Origin: Mycetocola miduiensis
GTDB taxonomy: Bacteria > Actinomycetota > Actinomycetes > Actinomycetales > Microbacteriaceae
NCBI RefSeq assembly: GCF_900115155.1
Contig: NZ_FOVM01000004.1
Coordinates: 124,001 to 188,000 of the forward strand
Reading direction: 5' to 3'
DNA: 64,000 nucleotides
The translations under genes and the position numbers were made by a program. Shown here piece after piece: positions 35,644 through 46,924 of this stretch. Within the stretch, counting starts at the first letter, position 1. Each line of letters begins with the position of its first letter. Under the pieces are notes generated by a model, which made no database searches, was not told the origin of the DNA, and was given only the letters and a program-made list of their open reading frames with translations.

Positions 35644-36600
35644 GTGACCAGCATCCGCACCAGCCGATCCCCGCGCATGACCCCGCCATCGACCCAGACA
35701 TCCGCCCAGCCGCGGATCGTGTTGCAGTTCATCGGTATGGGGATGATCTGGGGTGCCAGCTTCCTTTTCATGAAGGTCGCGCTCGAAGGCGTCTCGTTCG
35801 GGCAGGTGGCCTGGACCCGGATCATGCTCGGTGCTCTCACCCTCGGCATCATCGCCCTTGTGACGCGCGCCCGGCTCCCGCGCCAGCCGATCATCTGGCT
35901 GCACTACGCGATCATCTCCATCACCTTCTGCGTTATCCCATATCTCCTGTTCGCCTGGGCGGAGCAATACATCTCGTCGAGTCTCGCCTCGATCCTCAAC
36001 GCCGTGACGCCGATCACGACCGCGATCATGGCCACCCTCGTCTTCCGGGTGGAGAAACTCAACTGGGGCCAGGTCCTCGGGGTGCTCGTCGGCATGGTGG
36101 GTGTCGTCGTTATCGTGGCGCCATGGCAGGTCGGTGCGCTGCTCGGCGACTGGCGTGGACAACTGGCCTGCCTCGGGGCGGTGACCTGCTACGGTTTCGC
36201 GCTCGGCTACCTGCGCAAGTTCCTCGCCCCGTACAAGGTGCCGTCGATCACGTCGGCGTTCATGTACATCGGGATGGCGGCGGTGATCATGGCGCTACTC
36301 ACTCCGGTGGTTGCCTGGCATCCCGTGCAACTGGACGTCTGGGTCGTTCTGAGCCTGATCGGCCTCGGCGCCCTCGGCACCGGCGTTGTCTACATCTGGA
36401 ACATGAACGTACTCGCAGCATGGGGGCCAACAGCCACGAGCGGGGTGACCTACGTGACCCCGGTCGTCGGCGTGATCCTCGGCGTGCTGCTCCTGCAGGA
36501 GTCGCTCGGCTGGCACGAACCCGTCGGCGCCGTCCTGGTATTCATCGGCATCCTGCTCACCCAGCAACGCATCCGGCTCAGCCGTCGCGTCGTCGCCTGA
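35644..36600 (+). CDS. EamA/DMT-family transporter
   Basis: A 318-residue inner-membrane protein with ten hydrophobic helices in two EamA repeats. The first begins IGMGMIWGASFLFMKVALEGVSFGQVAWTRIMLGALTLGII and contains LNAVTPITTAIMATLVFRVEKLNWGQVLGVLVGMVGVVVI. The second ends VTYVTPVVGVILGVLLLQESLGWHEPVGAVLVFIGILLTQ. Family members export amino acids or small metabolites; substrate not predictable. Confidence 0.93.
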   Translation: MTSIRTSRSPRMTPPSTQTSAQPRIVLQFIGMGMIWGASFLFMKVALEGVSFGQVAWTRIMLGALTLGIIALVTRARLPRQPIIWLHYAIISITFCVIPYLLFAWAEQYISSSLASILNAVTPITTAIMATLVFRVEKLNWGQVLGVLVGMVGVVVIVAPWQVGALLGDWRGQLACLGAVTCYGFALGYLRKFLAPYKVPSITSAFMYIGMAAVIMALLTPVVAWHPVQLDVWVVLSLIGLGALGTGVVYIWNMNVLAAWGPTATSGVTYVTPVVGVILGVLLLQESLGWHEPVGAVLVFIGILLTQQRIRLSRRVVA

Positions 36601-36643
36601 CGTCACACCAGAGGGCAACGTCCGGCACGACAGCCCGGCGCGG

Positions 36644-36649
36644 TAGATT
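36644..36649 (+). promoter_or_regulatory. Leaderless-type -10 box for chorismate mutase
   Basis: TAGATT, 6 bases before the ATG at 36656. The same hexamer and spacing occur upstream of the EamA gene. Confidence 0.62.
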
Positions 36650-36655
36650 GGTCGC

Positions 36656-36955
36656 ATGGTCGAGAACGCAGTCTCCGCAGAGCTCAACAGCCTTCGACGC
36701 AGCATCGACAACATCGATGCCGCGCTCATCCACATGCTCGCCGAGCGGTTCAAGGCCACCCAGCAGGTCGGCACCCTCAAAGCGGAGCACGGGCTGCCCC
36801 CCGCCGACCCCGAGAGGGAGCGGCGCCAGATCGCACGCCTCCGCGGGCTCGCCGAAGAAGCACACCTCGACCCGGCATTCGCCGAGAAATGGTTTAACTT
36901 CGTCGTCGCCGAGGTCATCCACCACCACGAGCAGATCGCCAACGGGCAACGGTGA
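36656..36955 (+). CDS. Chorismate mutase (AroQ class)
   Basis: A 99-residue all-helical chorismate mutase converting chorismate to prephenate. LNSLRRSIDNIDAALIHMLAERFKATQQVG is the long first helix with the catalytic Arg (LRRSID) and the Lys/Arg positions of helix 2 (RERRQIARLR). It is a free-standing small form, not fused to DAHP synthase or prephenate dehydratase. Overlaps the next gene (GTGA). Confidence 0.93.
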   Translation: MVENAVSAELNSLRRSIDNIDAALIHMLAERFKATQQVGTLKAEHGLPPADPERERRQIARLRGLAEEAHLDPAFAEKWFNFVVAEVIHHHEQIANGQR

Positions 36956-37953: not shown

Positions 37954-39888
37954 CTACGCCGCCCGCGGCACCAGCTGCCGCACCGTCACGGTGCGCGACC
38001 TGGCGATGGCGAGCGTTGTCGCCGCGAGGGACCCCGCCGTCCACATCAGCAGCCCGACGATGGCCGCACCGAGCCCACCGCCCGACGTGACGACGGCGTG
38101 GAGGGCGTTCACAGCCGGGTGGACCGGCATGAAACTCTGCGCCGTGTCGAGCGCGGCAGGTGCCGTGGCGATGATGCTTGTGCCGATGAGCGCGAGCGCG
38201 ACGATCATCGACAGGAACCGCCCCGCCCCACCGAAGACCGCGTTGAGGGCCTGGTTCGTTGCGGCGAACGCGACCCCGGTGAGCGCCGCGACCACGGCGA
38301 ACCCGATCCAGCCGCCGGCATCCAGCTCGACAAGCGGCTGAAGGATCGCCGCGACGAGGATGCCCTGAAGCGCGCCGACACCAGCGGCCGGCGCCCAGGC
38401 CCGGAGGGCGAGCAGAACCGATGGCCGCGTCGAGCCGAGGGTGCGCGCGGGCTTCGCTCGGAGCACGATCAGGCTGCCGAACGCCCCAAGCCAGAGGGCG
38501 AGTGCCGCGTAGAACGGAACCCCGGCGGCACCGAACGAGAGGGCCAGTTCGCCGTCGGCGACGACCGGTTCAGCGACGACCTCGGCGAGGGTGGTGCGTT
38601 CGGATTCGCTGTAGCTCGGCACAGCCGCAACCGCTTCGGAGAGCCCGCCCGCAAGGGAGTTCACCCCGTCGGCGACGCCTGCCGCGCCGGTCGAGAGTCC
38701 GGCGGCCCCTGTGCTCAACTCCGACACCCCGTCGGCAAGCTCCGATGCCCCCGCACTGATGGATGAGCCCCCGGCAGCGAGGCTCGATGCGCCTGCCGCC
38801 GTGTCGCTGATCCCAGCGGTGACGCTCGATAGCCCGGTGGCGAGGGCGCTGATCCCGCCGGACACCGAGTCGGCCCCTGTGGCGAGTTCACCTGGCGTGC
38901 CGATCGCGGCGATCGTTCCGGCCGATACAGCGGCGTTTCTTGCGGCAGTGCTGAGCGCGGCGCATTGGCTGCCCACGGGGTCCGCTGTGCAGGACTCTGT
39001 GGCGAGGGCGGCCAGGTCGGCGGCCTGTGCGTTCAGCGACACGGCCTGGCCGGCTACCGCGAGCTGAAGCTGGTCGATGCCGTCTGCGATTTCCGCGGCG
39101 CCGGTCGCGAGGGACTGCGCCTGCGTCGGCAGCGCTGCGGTCTGGTTCTCGAGCGTCGACAGACCGGATGCTAGTGACGACAGTCCTCCGGACAGCCCCG
39201 AAATTCCTGTTGCCAGTCCTGAGGCGCCGCTGGAGAGCTCGGTCGTGCCATCAGCGAGGGTCGATGCACCTGTCGCAAGTTCCGTTGCGCCTGCACCCAG
39301 TTGAGCGGCGCCGTCTGCGGCCGTTCCGAGTTGCTCGCCGAGGCCGTTGAACCCGACGTAGACGTTCTCGAGGTAGGAGGTCGTGAGTTCGTTGCCGACG
39401 AGACCGGCTGCCGTCGTGGTGATCACCTGGCTGACGGCGTCATCGACGAGGCGGCTCTGATCGCTCGTCGCCACGTCGACCGTCGCTTTCTCGGCTTCGG
39501 AGGCTTCGCCCGAGAACGAGGTGGCTGCCGACGAGAAGTTTTCGGGGATCGTGACGACAGCGGTGAACTTCCCTGAGTTGAGGCCACTGGCTGCGTCGTC
39601 TTCGTCGGTGATCACCCAGGTGTAGTTGGTGTCGGATGCCGCGTCGCCGCCGACAAGCCCTGCGGCGAGCTGGCGACCGAACGGCACCGTCTGCCCGTCG
39701 ATTTCAACGGGCGTGTCGTTGTTGACGATGGCCCCGTTCACCTGGTCAAGCCGCTCAGAAGGGTTCCAGAACGCCCAGACCAGAACTCCGGCAACGACGA
39801 GCGGTACGAGAACGATGCCGAGGATGGACAACCAGGTGACCCGCCCGGGAGCGCGAGCGGATTCGAATCGTGCCAGTGGTGTGCTCAT
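37954..39888 (-). CDS. YhgE/Pip-family membrane protein
   Basis: A 644-residue protein with one N-terminal helix (LSILGIVLVPLVVAGVLVWAFW) followed by RLDQVNGAIVNNDTPVEIDGQTVPFGRQLAAGL, the YhgE/Pip signature. A long extracytoplasmic region carries many LxxGxxxLxxG repeats (ATELATGASTLADGTTELSSG and similar, in two blocks), then about six C-terminal helices of the ABC-2-like fold. The ATG overlaps the MMPL gene stop by ATGA. Members pair with MMPL or ABC exporters or act as phage-infection proteins; here a partner of the MMPL protein is most likely. Confidence 0.9.
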   Translation of the reverse strand: MSTPLARFESARAPGRVTWLSILGIVLVPLVVAGVLVWAFWNPSERLDQVNGAIVNNDTPVEIDGQTVPFGRQLAAGLVGGDAASDTNYTWVITDEDDAASGLNSGKFTAVVTIPENFSSAATSFSGEASEAEKATVDVATSDQSRLVDDAVSQVITTTAAGLVGNELTTSYLENVYVGFNGLGEQLGTAADGAAQLGAGATELATGASTLADGTTELSSGASGLATGISGLSGGLSSLASGLSTLENQTAALPTQAQSLATGAAEIADGIDQLQLAVAGQAVSLNAQAADLAALATESCTADPVGSQCAALSTAARNAAVSAGTIAAIGTPGELATGADSVSGGISALATGLSSVTAGISDTAAGASSLAAGGSSISAGASELADGVSELSTGAAGLSTGAAGVADGVNSLAGGLSEAVAAVPSYSESERTTLAEVVAEPVVADGELALSFGAAGVPFYAALALWLGAFGSLIVLRAKPARTLGSTRPSVLLALRAWAPAAGVGALQGILVAAILQPLVELDAGGWIGFAVVAALTGVAFAATNQALNAVFGGAGRFLSMIVALALIGTSIIATAPAALDTAQSFMPVHPAVNALHAVVTSGGGLGAAIVGLLMWTAGSLAATTLAIARSRTVTVRQLVPRAA

Positions 39889-42665
39889 GCGGGTACCTCT
39901 GCTTCGTGCGACAGGTTGGAGGAGGTGAGGGCGACGCGGACAGCCGTGTCGGCGCCGGGAACGGCGTCGGCCTGCGTATCGGGGAACGCGGTGCCAACGA
40001 TGAGAGCCAGCGGGCGATCGTTCGCGTGCGCTTGGGCCTGCGCATCCGAGAGGGCGTCGCGCAGGTTGCGGCGGGTGAGTGCATCCGTCACCGTGTCGAT
40101 TCCGTCCAGGGTCAGGATCCGCGGCGACTCGCGGACAGCATCGGTGATCGCCCGAATGGGGTCCACCGCTTCGCTGATCGAGACGAATGCGACGCGGGAA
40201 CGAACGGATGCCGCCCGCACCGGCAACACATAACCGGCTACCTTGAGCTTCCCCGTGTCGGCGTGCATGCGGCCCGACATGGTCAGGAGCAACGCGGTGA
40301 CGCTGGACTCGCGCTCGCCGGAGACCAGAAGTGTTCCGCCTTCTGGCAGGTGCGCGTCGACGTTGTCGAAGAGTGCAGTCCGTGAACCGGAGAGGGTGAG
40401 ACCCTCCGCGCTGAGAACGTCGCTGGATGCCGTCGACGGCCAGTCGCGCAGTTCGATCTCGTGGTGCAGGCCTTCACCCTCGACGTCGAACGACGGGAGC
40501 GAGCGGTCGAGCCAGCGCGGTATCCACCATGCCTTCTCGCCGAGGAGGGCGAGAACGGCGGGGACGAACGTCATCCGGACGATGAACGCGTCGATGAAGA
40601 CACCGACGGCGAGACCGAGCGCGATCGGTTTGATGTTCACGTCACCTTCGGGAACGAAGGCCGCGAACACAGCGAACATGATGATGGCGGCCGCGGTCAC
40701 CACTTTCGCCGAGCCGAGGAAGCCGGTTTCGATGGAGGCGCGCGCCTTGCCGGAGTGGACGTAGTCCTCGCGCATCCGGGCGACGAGGAACACTTCGTAG
40801 TCCATGGCCAGTCCGAACAGGACGCCCATCAGGATGATCGGCATGAAGCTGATCACCGGGCCCTCTTTCGCGACGTGCAGTGCGTCGGCGAACCAGCCGT
40901 ACTCGAAGACGAGGGCGACGATGCCGAAGGACGCCGCGACGCTGAGCAGGTAGCCGACGGTGGCTTTGATCGGTACCCAGATCGACCGGAACACCATGGT
41001 CAGCAGCACGAGCGACAAGCCGACGACGATGATGCCGAACGGCAGCAGGGCGTTGCCGAGTTTGTCGGACACGTCGATGCCCACAGCGGTGAAGCCGGTA
41101 ACCGAGAGGTCCACGTCGTACTCGTCGACGAAGTAGTCGTGCATCGATCGGATCTCGGCGACGAGCGCCTTGGTCTCCTCAGAGTCCGGTGCTCCTTCGG
41201 GGATGACCTGGACGATCCCAGTGTCCGCTGTCTCGTTGGGCGTCGCAAGCGGAACGGCGGCGACGCCGTCGAGGGCTTCGATCTCGTCCTTCAGGTCGGC
41301 CATCAGCCCGAGCGGGTCGGTCGACGTGACGATCGACCCGGTCACGATGAGGGGACCGTTGAACCCTTCGCCGAAGTGTTCGGAGACGAGGTCGTATGTG
41401 ATGCGGGCCGGATCATCAGACGGCAGGCCGCCGGCATCCGGGAGGGCGAGGCGGAGTCCGAGGGCCGGGAGCGCCGCAAGGCCCAGAACGGCGACGACCG
41501 CCAGGATCGTGACGATCGGGAACCGGGTGACCGCACGCACCCAGCCGGTGAAGAACCGGTTGGGTCGGTGTTCGGCCGCGTCTACCGCATCGGATGCTGC
41601 GGCAGCGCGTGCCCGGCGCTTTCGTCTCGCGTGCTTCTTCGGCTTCGGCCGCAGGCGTTCGCCGGCGAAGCCGAGCAGCGCTGGGATGAGGGTGATCGAG
41701 ATCAGCACGGCCACGCCGACGCCGACCGCGGCGGCAGCACCCATGACGGTGAGGAACGGGATCCCGGCGACACCGAGACCGAGCAGGGCGATGATCACGG
41801 TGAGCCCGGCGAAGATCACGGCGGAACCAGCCGTTGCCGTCGCCCGCGCCGCCGATTCCTCGGCCGAGAGTGAACCCTTCAGCTGCTCCTGGTGCCGCGA
41901 GATGATGAACAGCGCGTAGTCGATGCCGACGGCGAGACCGAGCATGAGGGCGAGCATCGGCGTTGTCGAGTTGATAGAACTGAACGCCGTCGCAAGGAAG
42001 ATCAGTGCCATGGAGATGCCGACGCCGAGCAGGGCGGTGAGCAGGGGCATCCCAGCAGCGAGGAACGATCCGAAGGTGAGCAGGAGCACGATGAGGGCAA
42101 CGCCGACACCGACAAGCTCGACGATGCTCAACGCAGGCAGGTTGGTGCTGAACAGCTGCCCGCCAAGGGAGGCCACGGCTCCCTCGGGCAGCGCGTCCTG
42201 CAGTGCGGCGACTTCCTCGCCAAGCGCGTCCTTCGTCGCCGCGGTGATGTCGGCCGTTTCGCCGTCGAGCTGGATGCTGATGAGCCCGGACGAATCGTCC
42301 TCACTGACGGCTCCGGTGACGTTCTCATCGAAGGGCGACACCGCCCGCTCGACCTGGTCGAGGTCGTTGAGCGCGGTGACGGATGCCTCGATCGTGACCG
42401 ACACGTCTTCGTCGGTGACAGCATCCCCCTCTGGCGCGACGACGATGACCTGGGCGGTGGTTCCGCTCACCTGCGGGAACGTCGTCGCGAGCGAATCGAG
42501 GGCGGCCTGCGATTCGGTCCCCGGGATGGAGATCGCGTTGTCGAGGCCCTGATTGAAGAGGAGGGCGCCGCCGCCAACGAGCGCGAGGATCAGAATCCAG
42601 GCACCAACGACGATGCCACGTGCGCGAAATGCCCATCGGCCGAGCGAGTACAGCAGAGAAGACAC
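39885..42665 (-). CDS. MMPL-family RND exporter with degenerate ABC-ATPase-like C-terminal domain
   Basis: A 926-residue transporter. It has two RND halves of about six helices each, with large loops (helix 1 AFRARGIVVGAWILILALVGGGAL; GLAVGIDYALFIISRHQEQL in half 1 and GLAMDYEVFLVARMREDYVHSGKA in half 2, carrying the proton-relay motifs). Residues 749-926 form an extra domain that reads like an ABC ATPase: GGTLLVSGERESSVTALL at the Walker A position (Lys lost) and RILTLDGID at Walker B; LSGGQ is missing. I chose the GTG at 42665 with AGGAG six bases upstream. Overlaps YhgE/Pip; divergent from tetR. Confidence 0.92.
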   Translation of the reverse strand: MSSLLYSLGRWAFRARGIVVGAWILILALVGGGALLFNQGLDNAISIPGTESQAALDSLATTFPQVSGTTAQVIVVAPEGDAVTDEDVSVTIEASVTALNDLDQVERAVSPFDENVTGAVSEDDSSGLISIQLDGETADITAATKDALGEEVAALQDALPEGAVASLGGQLFSTNLPALSIVELVGVGVALIVLLLTFGSFLAAGMPLLTALLGVGISMALIFLATAFSSINSTTPMLALMLGLAVGIDYALFIISRHQEQLKGSLSAEESAARATATAGSAVIFAGLTVIIALLGLGVAGIPFLTVMGAAAAVGVGVAVLISITLIPALLGFAGERLRPKPKKHARRKRRARAAAASDAVDAAEHRPNRFFTGWVRAVTRFPIVTILAVVAVLGLAALPALGLRLALPDAGGLPSDDPARITYDLVSEHFGEGFNGPLIVTGSIVTSTDPLGLMADLKDEIEALDGVAAVPLATPNETADTGIVQVIPEGAPDSEETKALVAEIRSMHDYFVDEYDVDLSVTGFTAVGIDVSDKLGNALLPFGIIVVGLSLVLLTMVFRSIWVPIKATVGYLLSVAASFGIVALVFEYGWFADALHVAKEGPVISFMPIILMGVLFGLAMDYEVFLVARMREDYVHSGKARASIETGFLGSAKVVTAAAIIMFAVFAAFVPEGDVNIKPIALGLAVGVFIDAFIVRMTFVPAVLALLGEKAWWIPRWLDRSLPSFDVEGEGLHHEIELRDWPSTASSDVLSAEGLTLSGSRTALFDNVDAHLPEGGTLLVSGERESSVTALLLTMSGRMHADTGKLKVAGYVLPVRAASVRSRVAFVSISEAVDPIRAITDAVRESPRILTLDGIDTVTDALTRRNLRDALSDAQAQAHANDRPLALIVGTAFPDTQADAVPGADTAVRVALTSSNLSHEAEVPA

Positions 42666-42712
42666 GGTGCTCCTGGAATAGGGGACTGGGACGCGGCAGG
42701 TTTCTCCGCTCA

Positions 42713-42762
42713 GATACACGAGTGTATCCGATACAGAGTTGTATCAGATACACTGATGTATC
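42713..42762. promoter_or_regulatory. Three phased TetR-type operators
   Basis: Three 16-bp inverted repeats of the form GATACA-N4-TGTATC at 42713-42728, 42730-42745 (imperfect: central GAGT) and 42747-42762. They start exactly 17 bp apart. They lie in the promoter region between the divergent MMPL and TetR genes, and the last one abuts the tetR -10 box region. The TetR product (42787) is the probable ligand. Confidence 0.82.
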
Positions 42763-42774
42763 GCCCGTTCCCAG

Positions 42775-42780
42775 TAAGGT
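42775..42780 (+). promoter_or_regulatory. Leaderless-type -10 box for tetR
   Basis: TAAGGT, 6 bases before the ATG at 42787. The third operator occupies the expected -35 position, consistent with autorepression. Confidence 0.6.
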
Positions 42781-42786
42781 GTCAGA

Positions 42787-43455
42787 ATGCCCCTCGATAT
42801 CGCAGCCGCTGAGACGGCGCAGGTCGAAAGCGCCCGCCGGCGGAGGACCCGCGATCGGCTCACCGATGCGGCATACGAGGTGTTCGCAGAGACCGGGTTC
42901 CACGCGGCCTCCGTCGAGATGATCGCTGAACGGGCCGGATTCACCCGCGGTGCTTTCTACTCCAACTTCGACACGAAGGAAGAGCTCTTTTTCGCGCTCG
43001 CCGAGCGGGAGAACCGTATCCGACTCGAACGACTGCAGGAGGGTGTCGACGCCATTCTCCCCGAGCTCGATGGGGGATCGCTGACGGAGGCGACGCTCGG
43101 CGGGGTGGTCACGCGGTTCCTCGAACTTCAGGCAGACGATGCGCGCTGGTGCATGGTGCAGTCCGAGTTCAAGCTCCTGGCGATGAGGGACCCAGCCGTC
43201 GCTTCAAAGTTTCTCGCCTACCAGCGGGGCTTCCTCCAGCAACTCGCGGAGCGCATCGACGGCGCCGTGCGCTCGGTCGGGCTTCGATTCACCATGGACC
43301 CGATTGCCGCGATCGGCATCATCGTCAACGTCTACGAATCCGCCGTTCAGGAGGCGATCCTCGAGGGCGGCGACACCGGTGCAATCTCGGCTCCGCCCGT
43401 GGCGCGGTCCACGCTCCCGGCTCTGGTCCACGCGCTCACCGAACCTCTCGGCTGA
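42787..43455 (+). CDS. TetR/AcrR-family transcriptional regulator
   Basis: A 222-residue repressor. The N-terminal DNA-binding domain (about 15-65) has RDRLTDAAYEVFAETGFHAASVEMIAERAGFTRGAFYSNFDTKEELFFAL, the standard TetR helix-turn-helix. The rest is the helical ligand-binding domain. It probably represses both itself and the divergent MMPL/YhgE operon through the three operators at 42713-42762. An exported lipid-like or toxic compound would be the expected inducer (inference). Confidence 0.94.
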   Translation: MPLDIAAAETAQVESARRRRTRDRLTDAAYEVFAETGFHAASVEMIAERAGFTRGAFYSNFDTKEELFFALAERENRIRLERLQEGVDAILPELDGGSLTEATLGGVVTRFLELQADDARWCMVQSEFKLLAMRDPAVASKFLAYQRGFLQQLAERIDGAVRSVGLRFTMDPIAAIGIIVNVYESAVQEAILEGGDTGAISAPPVARSTLPALVHALTEPLG

Positions 43456-43463
43456 CCGTCGGG

Positions 43464-46232
43464 TCAGCGCCGTCGGCGCTCGAGCAGGCGGTATCCCGCC
43501 TTGCGAATCTCACTGAACCACAGCACGGCGGATGCCGCCACCACACACCACAGCCAGTGCGCCAGGTCGAGAGGTGTGGTTCCGAAGGCGACCTGGAGGA
43601 ATGGAACCTGGACGACGGCGACCTGCAGGAGCGCGGCGAGGGCAACTGATCCCCACAGCCACGGGTTGCTGAACAGCCCGTGGAACGCTGTGGTCGTCTC
43701 CGACCGCGCGTTGAAGGCGTTGAACAGTTGGGTGAAGACGAGGGTCGTGAACCCCGCTGTCCGCGCGACATCCAGCGAGTCGGACCCTTCGAGAAAGCCT
43801 CCGGGAAGGAACCGGTCGATCGTGGCGAGCGTCACCAGCGCCATGACCAGCCCGATGGACAGGATGCCCGCCCACATGCGCCCGTCGATGGCGCGGTCGG
43901 TGAGCTTCCGTGGCGCCCGCGCCATGACGTCATCGACCTCCGGGTCGACTCCCATGGCGAGGGCGGGGCCCGAGTCGGTCACGAGGTTGATCCACAGGAT
44001 CTGGGTCGCCAGAAGCGGAATCACGACGGTCTCGGTGCCCGCCCCGGCGAGACCCAGCGCGGCGGCGAACACGACGCCGAGGAATACGGTCAGCACCTCG
44101 CCCATGTTCGACGAGAGCAGATAACGCAGGAACTTCTTGATGTTGTCGAAGATCGCGCGACCCTGCCGGACGGCGGCGACGATGGTCGCGAAGTTGTCGT
44201 CGGCGAGGATCATCCGCGCCGCCTCTTTCGTGACCTCGGTGCCGGTGATGCCCATCGCGATGCCGATGTCTGCGGACTTCAGTGCCGGCGCGTCGTTGAC
44301 GCCGTCGCCGGTCATCGCCACGATGCGCCCGTCGGCCTGCAGCGCGTCGACGAGTCGCAGTTTGTGCAACGGGGCGACGCGCGCGAAGACGGAGACCGTC
44401 CTGGTGGCCTCGCGGAGCGCGTCGGCATCGAGGTCGTCGATCTCGGTGCCGGTGAGAGCTCGAGCTCCGCGCTTGACGATGCCCAGGTCGACGGCGATAC
44501 GCGTCGCCGTCGCCGGGTGGTCGCCGGTGATCATGACGATCCGGATGCCGGCCCGTTGCGCTTCGGCGATCGCGGCAGCCACCTCGCTGCGGGGCGGGTC
44601 GATGATACCGGCGGTGCCGGCATAGACCAGGTCGTGCTCCAGCGCCTCAGACACGTTGTCCTCGTCGTCCGAGATCGGGCGGTACGCCGCCCCCAACGTG
44701 CGGAACGCGTCGGAGGACAGGGCTTCGATGTCATCGAGGGCCTGCTGCCGACGCTCGTCCGTCAGCGGGACATCCGTCGTTCCGACCCGCAGCCGGGTGC
44801 AATTGGACAGGAGAACGTCCGGGGCTCCCTTGCTGAACAGCAGGGTCCTGCCGTCGGCGTCTGAATGCACCGTCGACATCATCTTGCGGTCGGACGTGAA
44901 CGGGATCTCCGCGCGACGCGTGAACCGGTCCATCCGGTCGGTGGTGCCGTCGAGTTTGCGTGCAGCGACGAGGAACGCCGCTTCGGTCGGGTCGCCTTCG
45001 ATCTCCCACCCGTCGTCTCGCTCGGAGAGTTGGGCGTTGTTGGCGAGCGCCCCGGCGGTCAGCAGAAGCCGTGCCTCGGTGTGGCCGTCGGCACTCAGCG
45101 AGGAACCGCCGCTGAGAACCTCGCCCAACGGCGTGTATCCGGTGCCCGTGACATCCGCCCTCCCCGACGCCGTGATCAGACGCTCGATCGTCATCTGGTT
45201 GCGTGTGAGGGTGCCCGTCTTGTCGGTGCAGATGACTGACGCGGAGCCCAGGGATTCGACGGCGCTCAGCTGTTTGACCACGGCGTTGCGGCGGGCCATC
45301 CGCTGGACCCCGATCGCGAGCACGAGGGACAGGATCGCCGGGAGTCCTTCAGGGACGGCGGCGACGGCGAGGGAGACTCCGAGCAGCAGCACCACGACGA
45401 AATCGCTGGGTGTCGATATCCCGTTGACGATGGTGATGGTTCCCATGACCACGATAGCGATGGCGATCACGGCGATCCCGAGCATCCGGCCGATGCGTGC
45501 GACCTCGAGGGAGAGCGGGGTGGGTTCCTCGGTCGTGGCGTCAAGCAGGTGGGCGATGGCGCCGACTTCGGTGTCCATCCCGGTTGCGGTGACCACCGCG
45601 CGGCCGACGCCCTGCACGACCGAGGTGCCCTTGAAGGCCATGTTCGTGCGGCCACCGAGCGGCACCGGGCCGGACAGCAGGCCTGGATGTTTCTCCACGG
45701 CTTCGCTCTCGCCTGTGAGCGACGCTTCGGCGATGCGGAGCGCACTCGCGCCGACGATGCGCGCGTCCGCTCCCACCGAGTCGCCCTCGCTGAGGGCGAG
45801 CAGGTCTCCACGCACGAGTTCCGAGGAGTGCACGGTCTCGAGTGCGCCGTCGCGGACGACGGTCGATGACGCCGCGGTCATGGTCGCCAGGGCCGCGACA
45901 GCGGAGGCGGCGCGGAACTCCTGAACGAACCCGAGTACCGCGTTGAGCACGACGATCGCGCTGATCACGATCGCGTCGATCGGCCAACCCTCAGCCCCCT
46001 CCGCCAGCCAGGCCGCCAGTGAGACGGCGACCGCGCCGAGCAGCAGGTAAATGAGGGGATCGTGGAACTGGGCCAGAAAGACGAGCCAGAGGGGCTTCGC
46101 CTTCACGCCGCGCAGTTCGTTCGGGCCGTCTTCGGTGAGGCGCTTCGCGGCTTCCGTGTGGGAGAGCCCACGCTCGAGGTCGACACCGAGCAGGTCTGCG
46201 ACCGCCTCAGCGCTTTCGAGCGACGGGTTCAT
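43464..46232 (-). CDS. P2-type cation-transporting ATPase (Ca2+-type)
   Basis: A 922-residue P-type ATPase. It has an N-terminal cation-ATPase domain (GLSHTEAAKRLTEDGPNEL), ten predicted helices, helix-4 AVPEGLPAIL (PEGL of Ca2+ pumps), the phosphorylation motif VICTDKTGTLTRNQM, TGD-region ITGDHPATA, hinge MTGDGVNDAPALK, and helix-6 ILWINLVTDSGPALAMG. This set fits the Ca2+/SERCA-like group rather than heavy-metal P1B pumps. I chose the ATG at 46232 (MNPSLESAE), 5 bases past the rnhA stop; the open frame beyond it only shadows rnhA. Confidence 0.93.
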   Translation of the reverse strand: MNPSLESAEAVADLLGVDLERGLSHTEAAKRLTEDGPNELRGVKAKPLWLVFLAQFHDPLIYLLLGAVAVSLAAWLAEGAEGWPIDAIVISAIVVLNAVLGFVQEFRAASAVAALATMTAASSTVVRDGALETVHSSELVRGDLLALSEGDSVGADARIVGASALRIAEASLTGESEAVEKHPGLLSGPVPLGGRTNMAFKGTSVVQGVGRAVVTATGMDTEVGAIAHLLDATTEEPTPLSLEVARIGRMLGIAVIAIAIVVMGTITIVNGISTPSDFVVVLLLGVSLAVAAVPEGLPAILSLVLAIGVQRMARRNAVVKQLSAVESLGSASVICTDKTGTLTRNQMTIERLITASGRADVTGTGYTPLGEVLSGGSSLSADGHTEARLLLTAGALANNAQLSERDDGWEIEGDPTEAAFLVAARKLDGTTDRMDRFTRRAEIPFTSDRKMMSTVHSDADGRTLLFSKGAPDVLLSNCTRLRVGTTDVPLTDERRQQALDDIEALSSDAFRTLGAAYRPISDDEDNVSEALEHDLVYAGTAGIIDPPRSEVAAAIAEAQRAGIRIVMITGDHPATATRIAVDLGIVKRGARALTGTEIDDLDADALREATRTVSVFARVAPLHKLRLVDALQADGRIVAMTGDGVNDAPALKSADIGIAMGITGTEVTKEAARMILADDNFATIVAAVRQGRAIFDNIKKFLRYLLSSNMGEVLTVFLGVVFAAALGLAGAGTETVVIPLLATQILWINLVTDSGPALAMGVDPEVDDVMARAPRKLTDRAIDGRMWAGILSIGLVMALVTLATIDRFLPGGFLEGSDSLDVARTAGFTTLVFTQLFNAFNARSETTTAFHGLFSNPWLWGSVALAALLQVAVVQVPFLQVAFGTTPLDLAHWLWCVVAASAVLWFSEIRKAGYRLLERRRR

Positions 46233-46237
46233 CGGGA

Positions 46238-46924
46238 TCAGATCAGGCTGCGGAGGAGTGCTTCGGCGCTGACGCCTTCCTGACGGGCTCGCTCGTGCAA
46301 ACGGATGTGCTCGTCGTCGGTCAGCCACAGCGTGACCTCGTGCAGGTCGGGATCGTCGAGGGAGAACAGGGCCAGTTCGCTGTCCGCAGCGACGGCGTCG
46401 TCGAGCGCGCCGACCGGTGCCGGCGTGGTTCCTGGCTCGGCGGCATCCGTTGCGCCGCCTTCGCGCGGCCAGCCCGGCCCGTGGGGGATCGGCCGGCCGG
46501 CCTGGAACGCCTCGGAGACAGCGCGGGCGCGGGCGTCGGCGGCTTCGTTCAACGGGTGGCCGGCGTGGCCGCGCACCCACTCGAACCGGTAGTTGCGCCC
46601 GGCCATGGCCTCGTCGAGCTCCTTGATGATCTCGAGGTTCATCACCGGTTTGCCGTCGCTCTTGCGCCAGCCCTTGGCCTTCCAGCTGCGCATCCACTTG
46701 GTGACCGTGTTGATCACGTACTGGCTGTCGCAGAGCACGAGAAGGTCGTCGTCGAGGTGTGCCGTCGCGCGGAACAGTTCGAGTACGGCCTTGAGTTCAC
46801 CCTGGTTATTCGTGGCGTGCTTCCAGCCGCCTGCCGCCCAGTGTGCGTCGTCGACGTACCACGCCCAGCCGGCCGGGCCGGGGTTGCCGAGGGCTGAGCC
46901 GTCTGCGGCAGCGGTGATCGTCAT
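46238..46924 (-). CDS. rnhA: Ribonuclease HI with C-terminal extension
   Basis: A 228-residue protein whose first ~145 residues are RNase HI: AADGSALGNPGPAGWAW (catalytic Asp), NNQGELKAVLE (Glu), LLVLCDSQYVIN (Asp), and VRGHAGHPLNEAADARAR (His and Asp). It cuts RNA in RNA-DNA hybrids. The remaining ~80 residues are an acidic linker and a segment LWLTDDEHIRLHERARQEGVSAEALLRSLI resembling a ribbon-helix-helix. I chose the ATG at 46924, with TACGAT 7 bases upstream. Confidence 0.92.
   Translation of the reverse strand: MTITAAADGSALGNPGPAGWAWYVDDAHWAAGGWKHATNNQGELKAVLELFRATAHLDDDLLVLCDSQYVINTVTKWMRSWKAKGWRKSDGKPVMNLEIIKELDEAMAGRNYRFEWVRGHAGHPLNEAADARARAVSEAFQAGRPIPHGPGWPREGGATDAAEPGTTPAPVGALDDAVAADSELALFSLDDPDLHEVTLWLTDDEHIRLHERARQEGVSAEALLRSLI

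Follow-up and report, generated by a model that had tools for sequence, protein, structure and literature searches.

By the textbook account, RND and ABC transporters are distinct machines, each with an energy source of its own. The MmpL/MMPL exporters of the RND superfamily (PF03176; TIGR00833, ActII-3 type) and the nucleotide-binding domains (NBDs) of ABC transporters (PF00005), such as CcmA, MlaF, EcfA and DrrA, are the described systems closest to the two halves of the protein considered here. Degenerate NBDs occur in asymmetric ABC transporters, including CFTR NBD1, CydC and others, where they face an active NBD. Also close is the YhgE/Pip family (TIGR03061/TIGR03062), which counts Pip, YueB and EsaA among its relatives; YhgE/Pip has long been known mainly as a phage-receptor protein.

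The locus lies in a 64,000-nucleotide stretch of Mycetocola miduiensis DNA (hereafter, the window). The fusion encoded there, a probable proton-driven lipid or drug pump of soil actinobacteria, shares with the MMPL exporters a membrane part carrying both Asp-Tyr pairs; however, while near tailless MMPLs end soon after the LPxxDVEGE motif, the fusion adds a pseudo-NBD of about 190 residues that is tied to YhgE/Pip. Compared with ABC NBDs, this tail lacks the P-loop lysine, the catalytic glutamate and LSGGQ, its helical subdomain is deleted, and it is fused to a proton pump. The downstream gene has YhgE/Pip identity and LxxG heptad repeats in common with its family, and is here paired with a pseudo-NBD, either alone or fused to MMPL. 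An ABC domain with impaired catalysis is common to the tail and the degenerate NBDs of asymmetric transporters, but, unlike CFTR NBD1 or CydC, the tail belongs to a pump of another superfamily, with no known active NBD partner. Among the matches listed from the open-licence PMC literature, no title or opening of an abstract reports an MMPL-ABC fusion, a YhgE pseudo-ATPase or the pairing of YhgE/Pip with a pseudo-NBD; the part of PMC12584985 consulted places a YhgE gene and MmpL4 at distant coordinates.

The fusion gene and its operon

The features of the locus are as follows (window coordinates):

39885..42665, minus strand: MMPL-pseudoNBD fusion protein, 926 aa, GTG start
40470..42665, minus strand: MMPL (RND) pump part, aa 1-732, with the LPSFDVEGEG junction at its end
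41916..41921, minus strand: Asp249-Tyr250 of the pump part, invariant in 39 aligned fusions
40797..40802, minus strand: Asp622-Tyr623, the second invariant Asp-Tyr pair (39 aligned fusions)
39918..40427, minus strand: degenerate ABC nucleotide-binding-domain core, aa 747-916
40296..40319, minus strand: Walker A position, GERESSVT (Lys to Val)
40182..40250, minus strand: conserved segment KLKVAGYVLPVRAASVRSRVAFV, between the Walker A helix and the Q-loop position; putative YhgE-facing surface
40122..40181, minus strand: short link replacing the LSGGQ-bearing helical subdomain, about 53 residues fewer than EcfA
40095..40118, minus strand: Walker B position, ILTLDGID (catalytic Glu to Gly)
37954..39888, minus strand: YhgE/Pip protein, 644 aa, an ABC-2-type membrane protein
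42787..43455, plus strand: TetR-family regulator, 222 aa, divergent, upstream of the fusion gene
42713-42728, 42730-42745 and 42747-42762: three tandem operator-like palindromes, GATACAN4TGTATC

The pump part matches PF03176 with 290.5 bits against a cut-off of 20.5. Asp249-Tyr250 is presumably the proton-relay pair of MmpL pumps, and we take a relay role to apply to Asp622-Tyr623 as well. Near tailless MMPLs mostly stop 12-26 residues past the point matching the junction (21 of 24), the other three continuing for 43, 144 and 149 residues. L340 and L342, MMPLs of the tailless type, end in a different C-terminal extension, 144-149 residues long, with no match to the tail-family profile. Since the loci of the pattern-seeded alignments were found by PSFDVEG[ED], junction conservation in them is partly selected; the first, unseeded alignment is free of that effect.

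A frame error, which the first-pass annotation had named as a possible refutation, or a local oddity is ruled out by 139 distinct open-frame fusions (out of 151 collected) across many genera. A defence-system reading was dropped, as the fusion found no match in PADLOC-DB at 1e-3.

YhgE/Pip lies directly downstream, with 4 bases shared between its start and the stop of the fusion gene. The protein scores 119.7 bits (E 9e-35) against TIGR03061, the N-terminal YhgE model with a cut-off of 96.15, and 72.4 bits against TIGR03062, the C-terminal model with a cut-off of 102.2. This is the single YhgE/Pip match in the genome, and no solved relative was found at E 0.01.

The three 16-bp palindromes upstream are the only exact copies of GATACAN4TGTATC in the 3.3 Mb genome. 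Of 105 loci, which overlap in part and include the window, 92 have a palindrome of that kind in a loose form between TetR and MMPL, and 59 have one in a strict form. The strict form reaches 78 copies in 43 kb of TetR-MMPL region versus 7 in 1.5 Mb elsewhere. A promoter and terminator scan of 42600-42850 returned nothing. Elsewhere in the window, the stretch 35644-36955 contains an EamA transporter gene and, 55 bases beyond its end and in the same orientation, a chorismate mutase gene (CM_2, 36656-36955), and the frame of a P-type cation ATPase (43464-46697) has a start that is probably overpredicted, because about 160 residues precede its first Pfam domain.

A degenerate ABC domain and its stand-alone relatives

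The tail had been described as an ABC nucleotide-binding domain without the P-loop lysine and LSGGQ, and both parts of that description hold. A fold comparison assigns it the RecA-like ABC fold and, among the fold families in its 50 rows of matches, rejects an unrelated one; a structure model of high confidence and profile comparisons agree, and the catalytic glutamate proves to be gone too in the window's tail. The Pfam check was divided: the window's tail has no match on its own and is absent from the 95 PF00005 matches of the genome, whereas all eight relatives scanned (six stand-alone proteins and two long tails) pass the ABC_tran (PF00005) cut-off. A chance resemblance, with the tail belonging to some unrelated type of alpha/beta domain, has a negligible probability, since the missing Pfam match in its favour is contradicted by the fold comparison, the structure model, the profile-profile match given below and the relatives above the cut-off.

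The loss of catalytic motifs is general among the fused tails. The P-loop lysine is retained in 12 and the helical subdomain in 24 of the 139 distinct tails (absent in 115), the Walker B aspartate is present in 104 of 120, an LSGGQ-type signature occurs in none of those 120, and the switch histidine in none of the 25 of a motif survey that included the window's tail. As a control, ordinary ABC domains were picked from the same genome by their full motif pattern, and 25 of 25 have the lysine, aspartate, glutamate, histidine and signature. Judged by its sequence, the window's tail is probably an inactive ATPase domain, although nucleotide binding may persist in some of the 12 tails that keep the P-loop. 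Four long-tailed fusions (L143, L146, L201 and L202) combine an intact GPPGTGKT or GPSGSGKT P-loop with the helical subdomain, and are candidate examples of the ancestral state.

Degenerate ABC proteins also stand alone upstream of YhgE/Pip, forming a wide family (L183-L200, L274-L313) that is possibly annotated as ATP-binding proteins. Among 46 further YhgE loci, chosen for the lack of a strong partner, 41 have such a gene directly upstream, three of these partners (L249, L250 and L252) having been in the profile that detected them. Four loci (L251, L253, L308 and L313) show no family partner, and L311, whose YhgE was not recovered on rereading, counts as neither. None of the 46 contains an MMPL match. 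The 46 loci account for 48 of 69 YhgEs listed as partnerless at 1e-12; the other 21 rank lower and were left out. In 63 distinct stand-alone members (four duplicate pieces and ten ordinary ABCs having been left out beforehand), alignment-based counts, approximate for any single column, give the lysine in 8, the Walker B aspartate in 26, the catalytic glutamate in 1, and neither the histidine nor LSGGQ in any. The tails match 12 stand-alone YhgE partners in a profile-profile comparison with E 5.6e-27, the gap between them being the helical subdomain.

Among 81 ABC domains placed in a tree, 50 YhgE-linked rows (both fused tails and stand-alone proteins) split from 31 ordinary ABCs at 100/99; six "alone" rows had been classed as ordinary after a first tree, and eight rows were dropped (five duplicate pieces and three further ordinary ABC pieces). 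The window's tail therefore shows both marks by which the YhgE-linked pseudo-NBD family is defined here, namely this grouping and a YhgE/Pip gene directly after it.

The earlier suggestion of a regulatory or scaffolding relic is misleading in its last word, as the tail is under purifying selection and its stand-alone sisters are degenerate too. Across 23 close pairs, dN/dS is 0.07-0.36 for the tail versus 0.06-0.31 for the pump part, whose frames may contain some upstream codons; functionless decay is thereby disfavoured. The Walker A window shows roughly average conservation (rank 69 of 154), and the stretch ahead of the Q-loop position comes 15th of 139, counted from the most conserved. Taken together, the low dN/dS, the average Walker A window and the better-conserved pre-Q-loop segment suggest that the domain is probably maintained for a purpose other than ATP chemistry. 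In the unseeded alignment Gly75 and Gly82 are invariant, and Arg76, Lys85 and Arg99 nearly so, all of them outside the ATP site.

Linkage to YhgE/Pip and evolutionary history

The co-occurrence of tail and YhgE, put forward in the first-pass annotation as a check, was found in every locus where it could be tested. YhgE/Pip is the next gene downstream on the same strand in 80 of 80 named fused loci (the best 80 of 129 found), whose genera include Mycetocola, Leifsonia, Rathayibacter, Plantibacter, Cellulomonas, Promicromonospora, Saccharopolyspora and Planobispora; a TetR match lies within the locus in 73 of the same 80. YhgE was called there at the level of open frames, some of them long, so that its exact start is not fixed.

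Another count comes from 149 relatives, with 81 fused matches listed (open frame of at least 850 aa) and 23 alone; 12 of the 81 are classed as fused by frame length, their MMPL part unread. YhgE pairing was found for 80 of these 81, and the last one (L235) lies at a contig end. Coordinates established 63 of the pairs, some being missed there because the best 150 YhgE matches listed were used, and two further locus readings added 9 and 8. The 23 "alone" matches comprise 18 with YhgE among the matches listed, L245, which shows YhgE, L243 at a contig start, and L244, L246 and L247, which are ordinary ABCs and were left out after inspection. The two linkage counts are not independent, as L033-L072 and L073-L152 share some genomes.

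Tailless pumps provide the control. No YhgE was found near any of 24 tailless MMPLs in flanks of some 1.5 kb to either side, those of L335 and L338 being shorter, nor within the about 1.5 kb examined around the genome's own second MMPL, while the fused loci of the same comparison had YhgE in six of six, the window included. Pure hitch-hiking of YhgE is disfavoured by this control. In L330, a tailless MMPL locus, an upstream frame is weakly tail-like (E 6e-6), with no YhgE seen in the flanks. Of the two partners proposed earlier for the tail, YhgE/Pip appears favoured over an ABC partner, given the tail's place in a YhgE-linked family and the gene linkage.

The YhgE sequences may carry a trace of this association. 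The GGx(1-2)P motif of the C-terminal membrane part occurs in 0 of 114 YhgEs with short tails (L241, with an insert of 59, scored as short), in 19 of 24 with long tails and in 62 of 65 that have no fused pump as partner, the last figure being 62 of 77 before removal of 12 fused duplicates labelled "alone". Its co-loss with short tails is a hint and not a test, as 2-3 independent changes are involved and the sign test gives a median p of 0.5.

The topology test leaves a single clade uniting all fused tails acceptable (p-AU 0.241). In the pump-part tree, from which the distant L002 was left out, one branch at 100/99 parts 30 fused from 15 tailless rows; a FastTree of the pump part, built from 88 rows with an outgroup that is very distant, needs two changes between the fused and tailless states. 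On the MMPL tree, whose root is unsure, the lysine state changed at least eight times and the long or short tail state at least three times. The simplest history would be a single fusion event bringing together a TetR-MMPL unit and a pseudo-NBD/YhgE pair, followed by repeated loss of the P-loop and the helical subdomain. Two of the nearest tailless MMPLs (L320 and L321) have a TetR relative in their locus.

In a sample of 246 genomes of the phylum, at least four match at E 1e-20 or better, a lower bound given the strict threshold and even sampling: the window's genome, two long-frame genomes of the same class, and one stand-alone match outside the class. Among the matches listed, fused copies also come from several families of the class.

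A candidate hybrid exporter

The reading we favour, and regard as fairly probable, is a TetR-controlled hybrid exporter operon, in which an MMPL pump carries the pseudo-ATPase partner of YhgE/Pip fused to it as a docking domain. The tail, keeping the RecA-like NBD core without the residues of ATP chemistry or the helical subdomain, would hold the ABC-2-type YhgE/Pip, a protein with a long heptad-repeat part, against the pump. Ordinary NBDs have their docking groove between the core and the helical subdomain; the docking mode of the tail must then differ, because most fused tails lack that subdomain. The pump, with two Asp-Tyr pairs that do not vary among the aligned fusions, would supply the energy; its proton-driven movements may be coupled to YhgE/Pip, or the cargo may be handed through it. 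The heptad-repeat part of YhgE may carry the cargo outward, in the manner of MmpS5L5, for which the part of PMC12501195 consulted proposes a coiled-coil tube in this role. The local TetR would switch on both genes when the cargo is present, and the cargo is perhaps an amphipathic lipid, a steroid or an antimicrobial. Linkage and fusion are association, not mechanism.

Expression data from Saccharopolyspora hirsuta are in line with this reading. In the part of PMC9782250 consulted, Table 2 lists the YhgE/Pip gene F1721_04135 as 3.82-fold and the MMPL gene F1721_04140 as 3.33-fold up with cholesterol at 24 h, both belonging to a set of 28 genes that cholesterol raises; the authors propose a role in lipid export for F1721_04135, and the two genes are not linked in that part. 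As the locus tags are consecutive, the pair is probably of the same operon type, the S. hirsuta tail being unread.

More tentatively, and with rather less confidence than we place in the operon itself, YhgE/Pip may form the membrane half of a transporter of ABC-like kind, its NBD partner having turned pseudo-ATPase. In one clade this pseudo-NBD would have been welded to an RND/MMPL pump, with the proton gradient replacing ATP and YhgE/Pip serving as the wall-spanning outlet.

The alternative that survives best, though it is unlikely, takes the tail for a regulatory domain that senses a nucleotide or ligand or gates the pump, its link to YhgE/Pip being mere operon inheritance from an ancestral pseudo-NBD/YhgE pair. 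Pseudo-ATPase domains are often regulatory, and the P-loops kept in 12 of 139 tails and the Walker B aspartate kept in 104 of 120 are consistent with such a role; however, conservation of the Walker A window is no more than average, its lysine changed state repeatedly, and tail and YhgE were never seen apart where this was testable. It is quite unlikely that the tail still binds ATP as half of a composite site with an ABC protein in trans, making the complex ATP-driven. Some members have GKS/GKT P-loops, the genome offers 95 other ABC matches, and an ABC-like frame lies several kb off in a few fused loci (L129, L148, L262, L266 and L268), but the lysine, catalytic glutamate and LSGGQ are gone in the window and the switch histidine was in none of the fused tails surveyed. 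Very unlikely is a decaying passenger, that is, a fusion fixed by chance with a functionless tail whose motif erosion is the sign of decay. Although the tail diverges faster than the whole protein (33-76% versus 52-86% identity to the window's fusion among relatives) and its P-loop and helical subdomain repeatedly changed, dN/dS is no higher than 0.36 in all 23 pairs, the frame is open in 139 distinct fusions from many genera, the glycines and basic residues outside the ATP site are conserved, and the structure model is of high confidence.

Returning to the hybrid exporter, a conserved fusion of an RND pump with an ABC pseudo-ATPase, beside an ABC-2-type protein, would be a natural hybrid of the two kinds of machine. 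With it, YhgE/Pip gains a testable partner and a possible export role, and attention is drawn to a larger, YhgE-linked family of degenerate ABC proteins whose members might be mistaken for functional ATPases.
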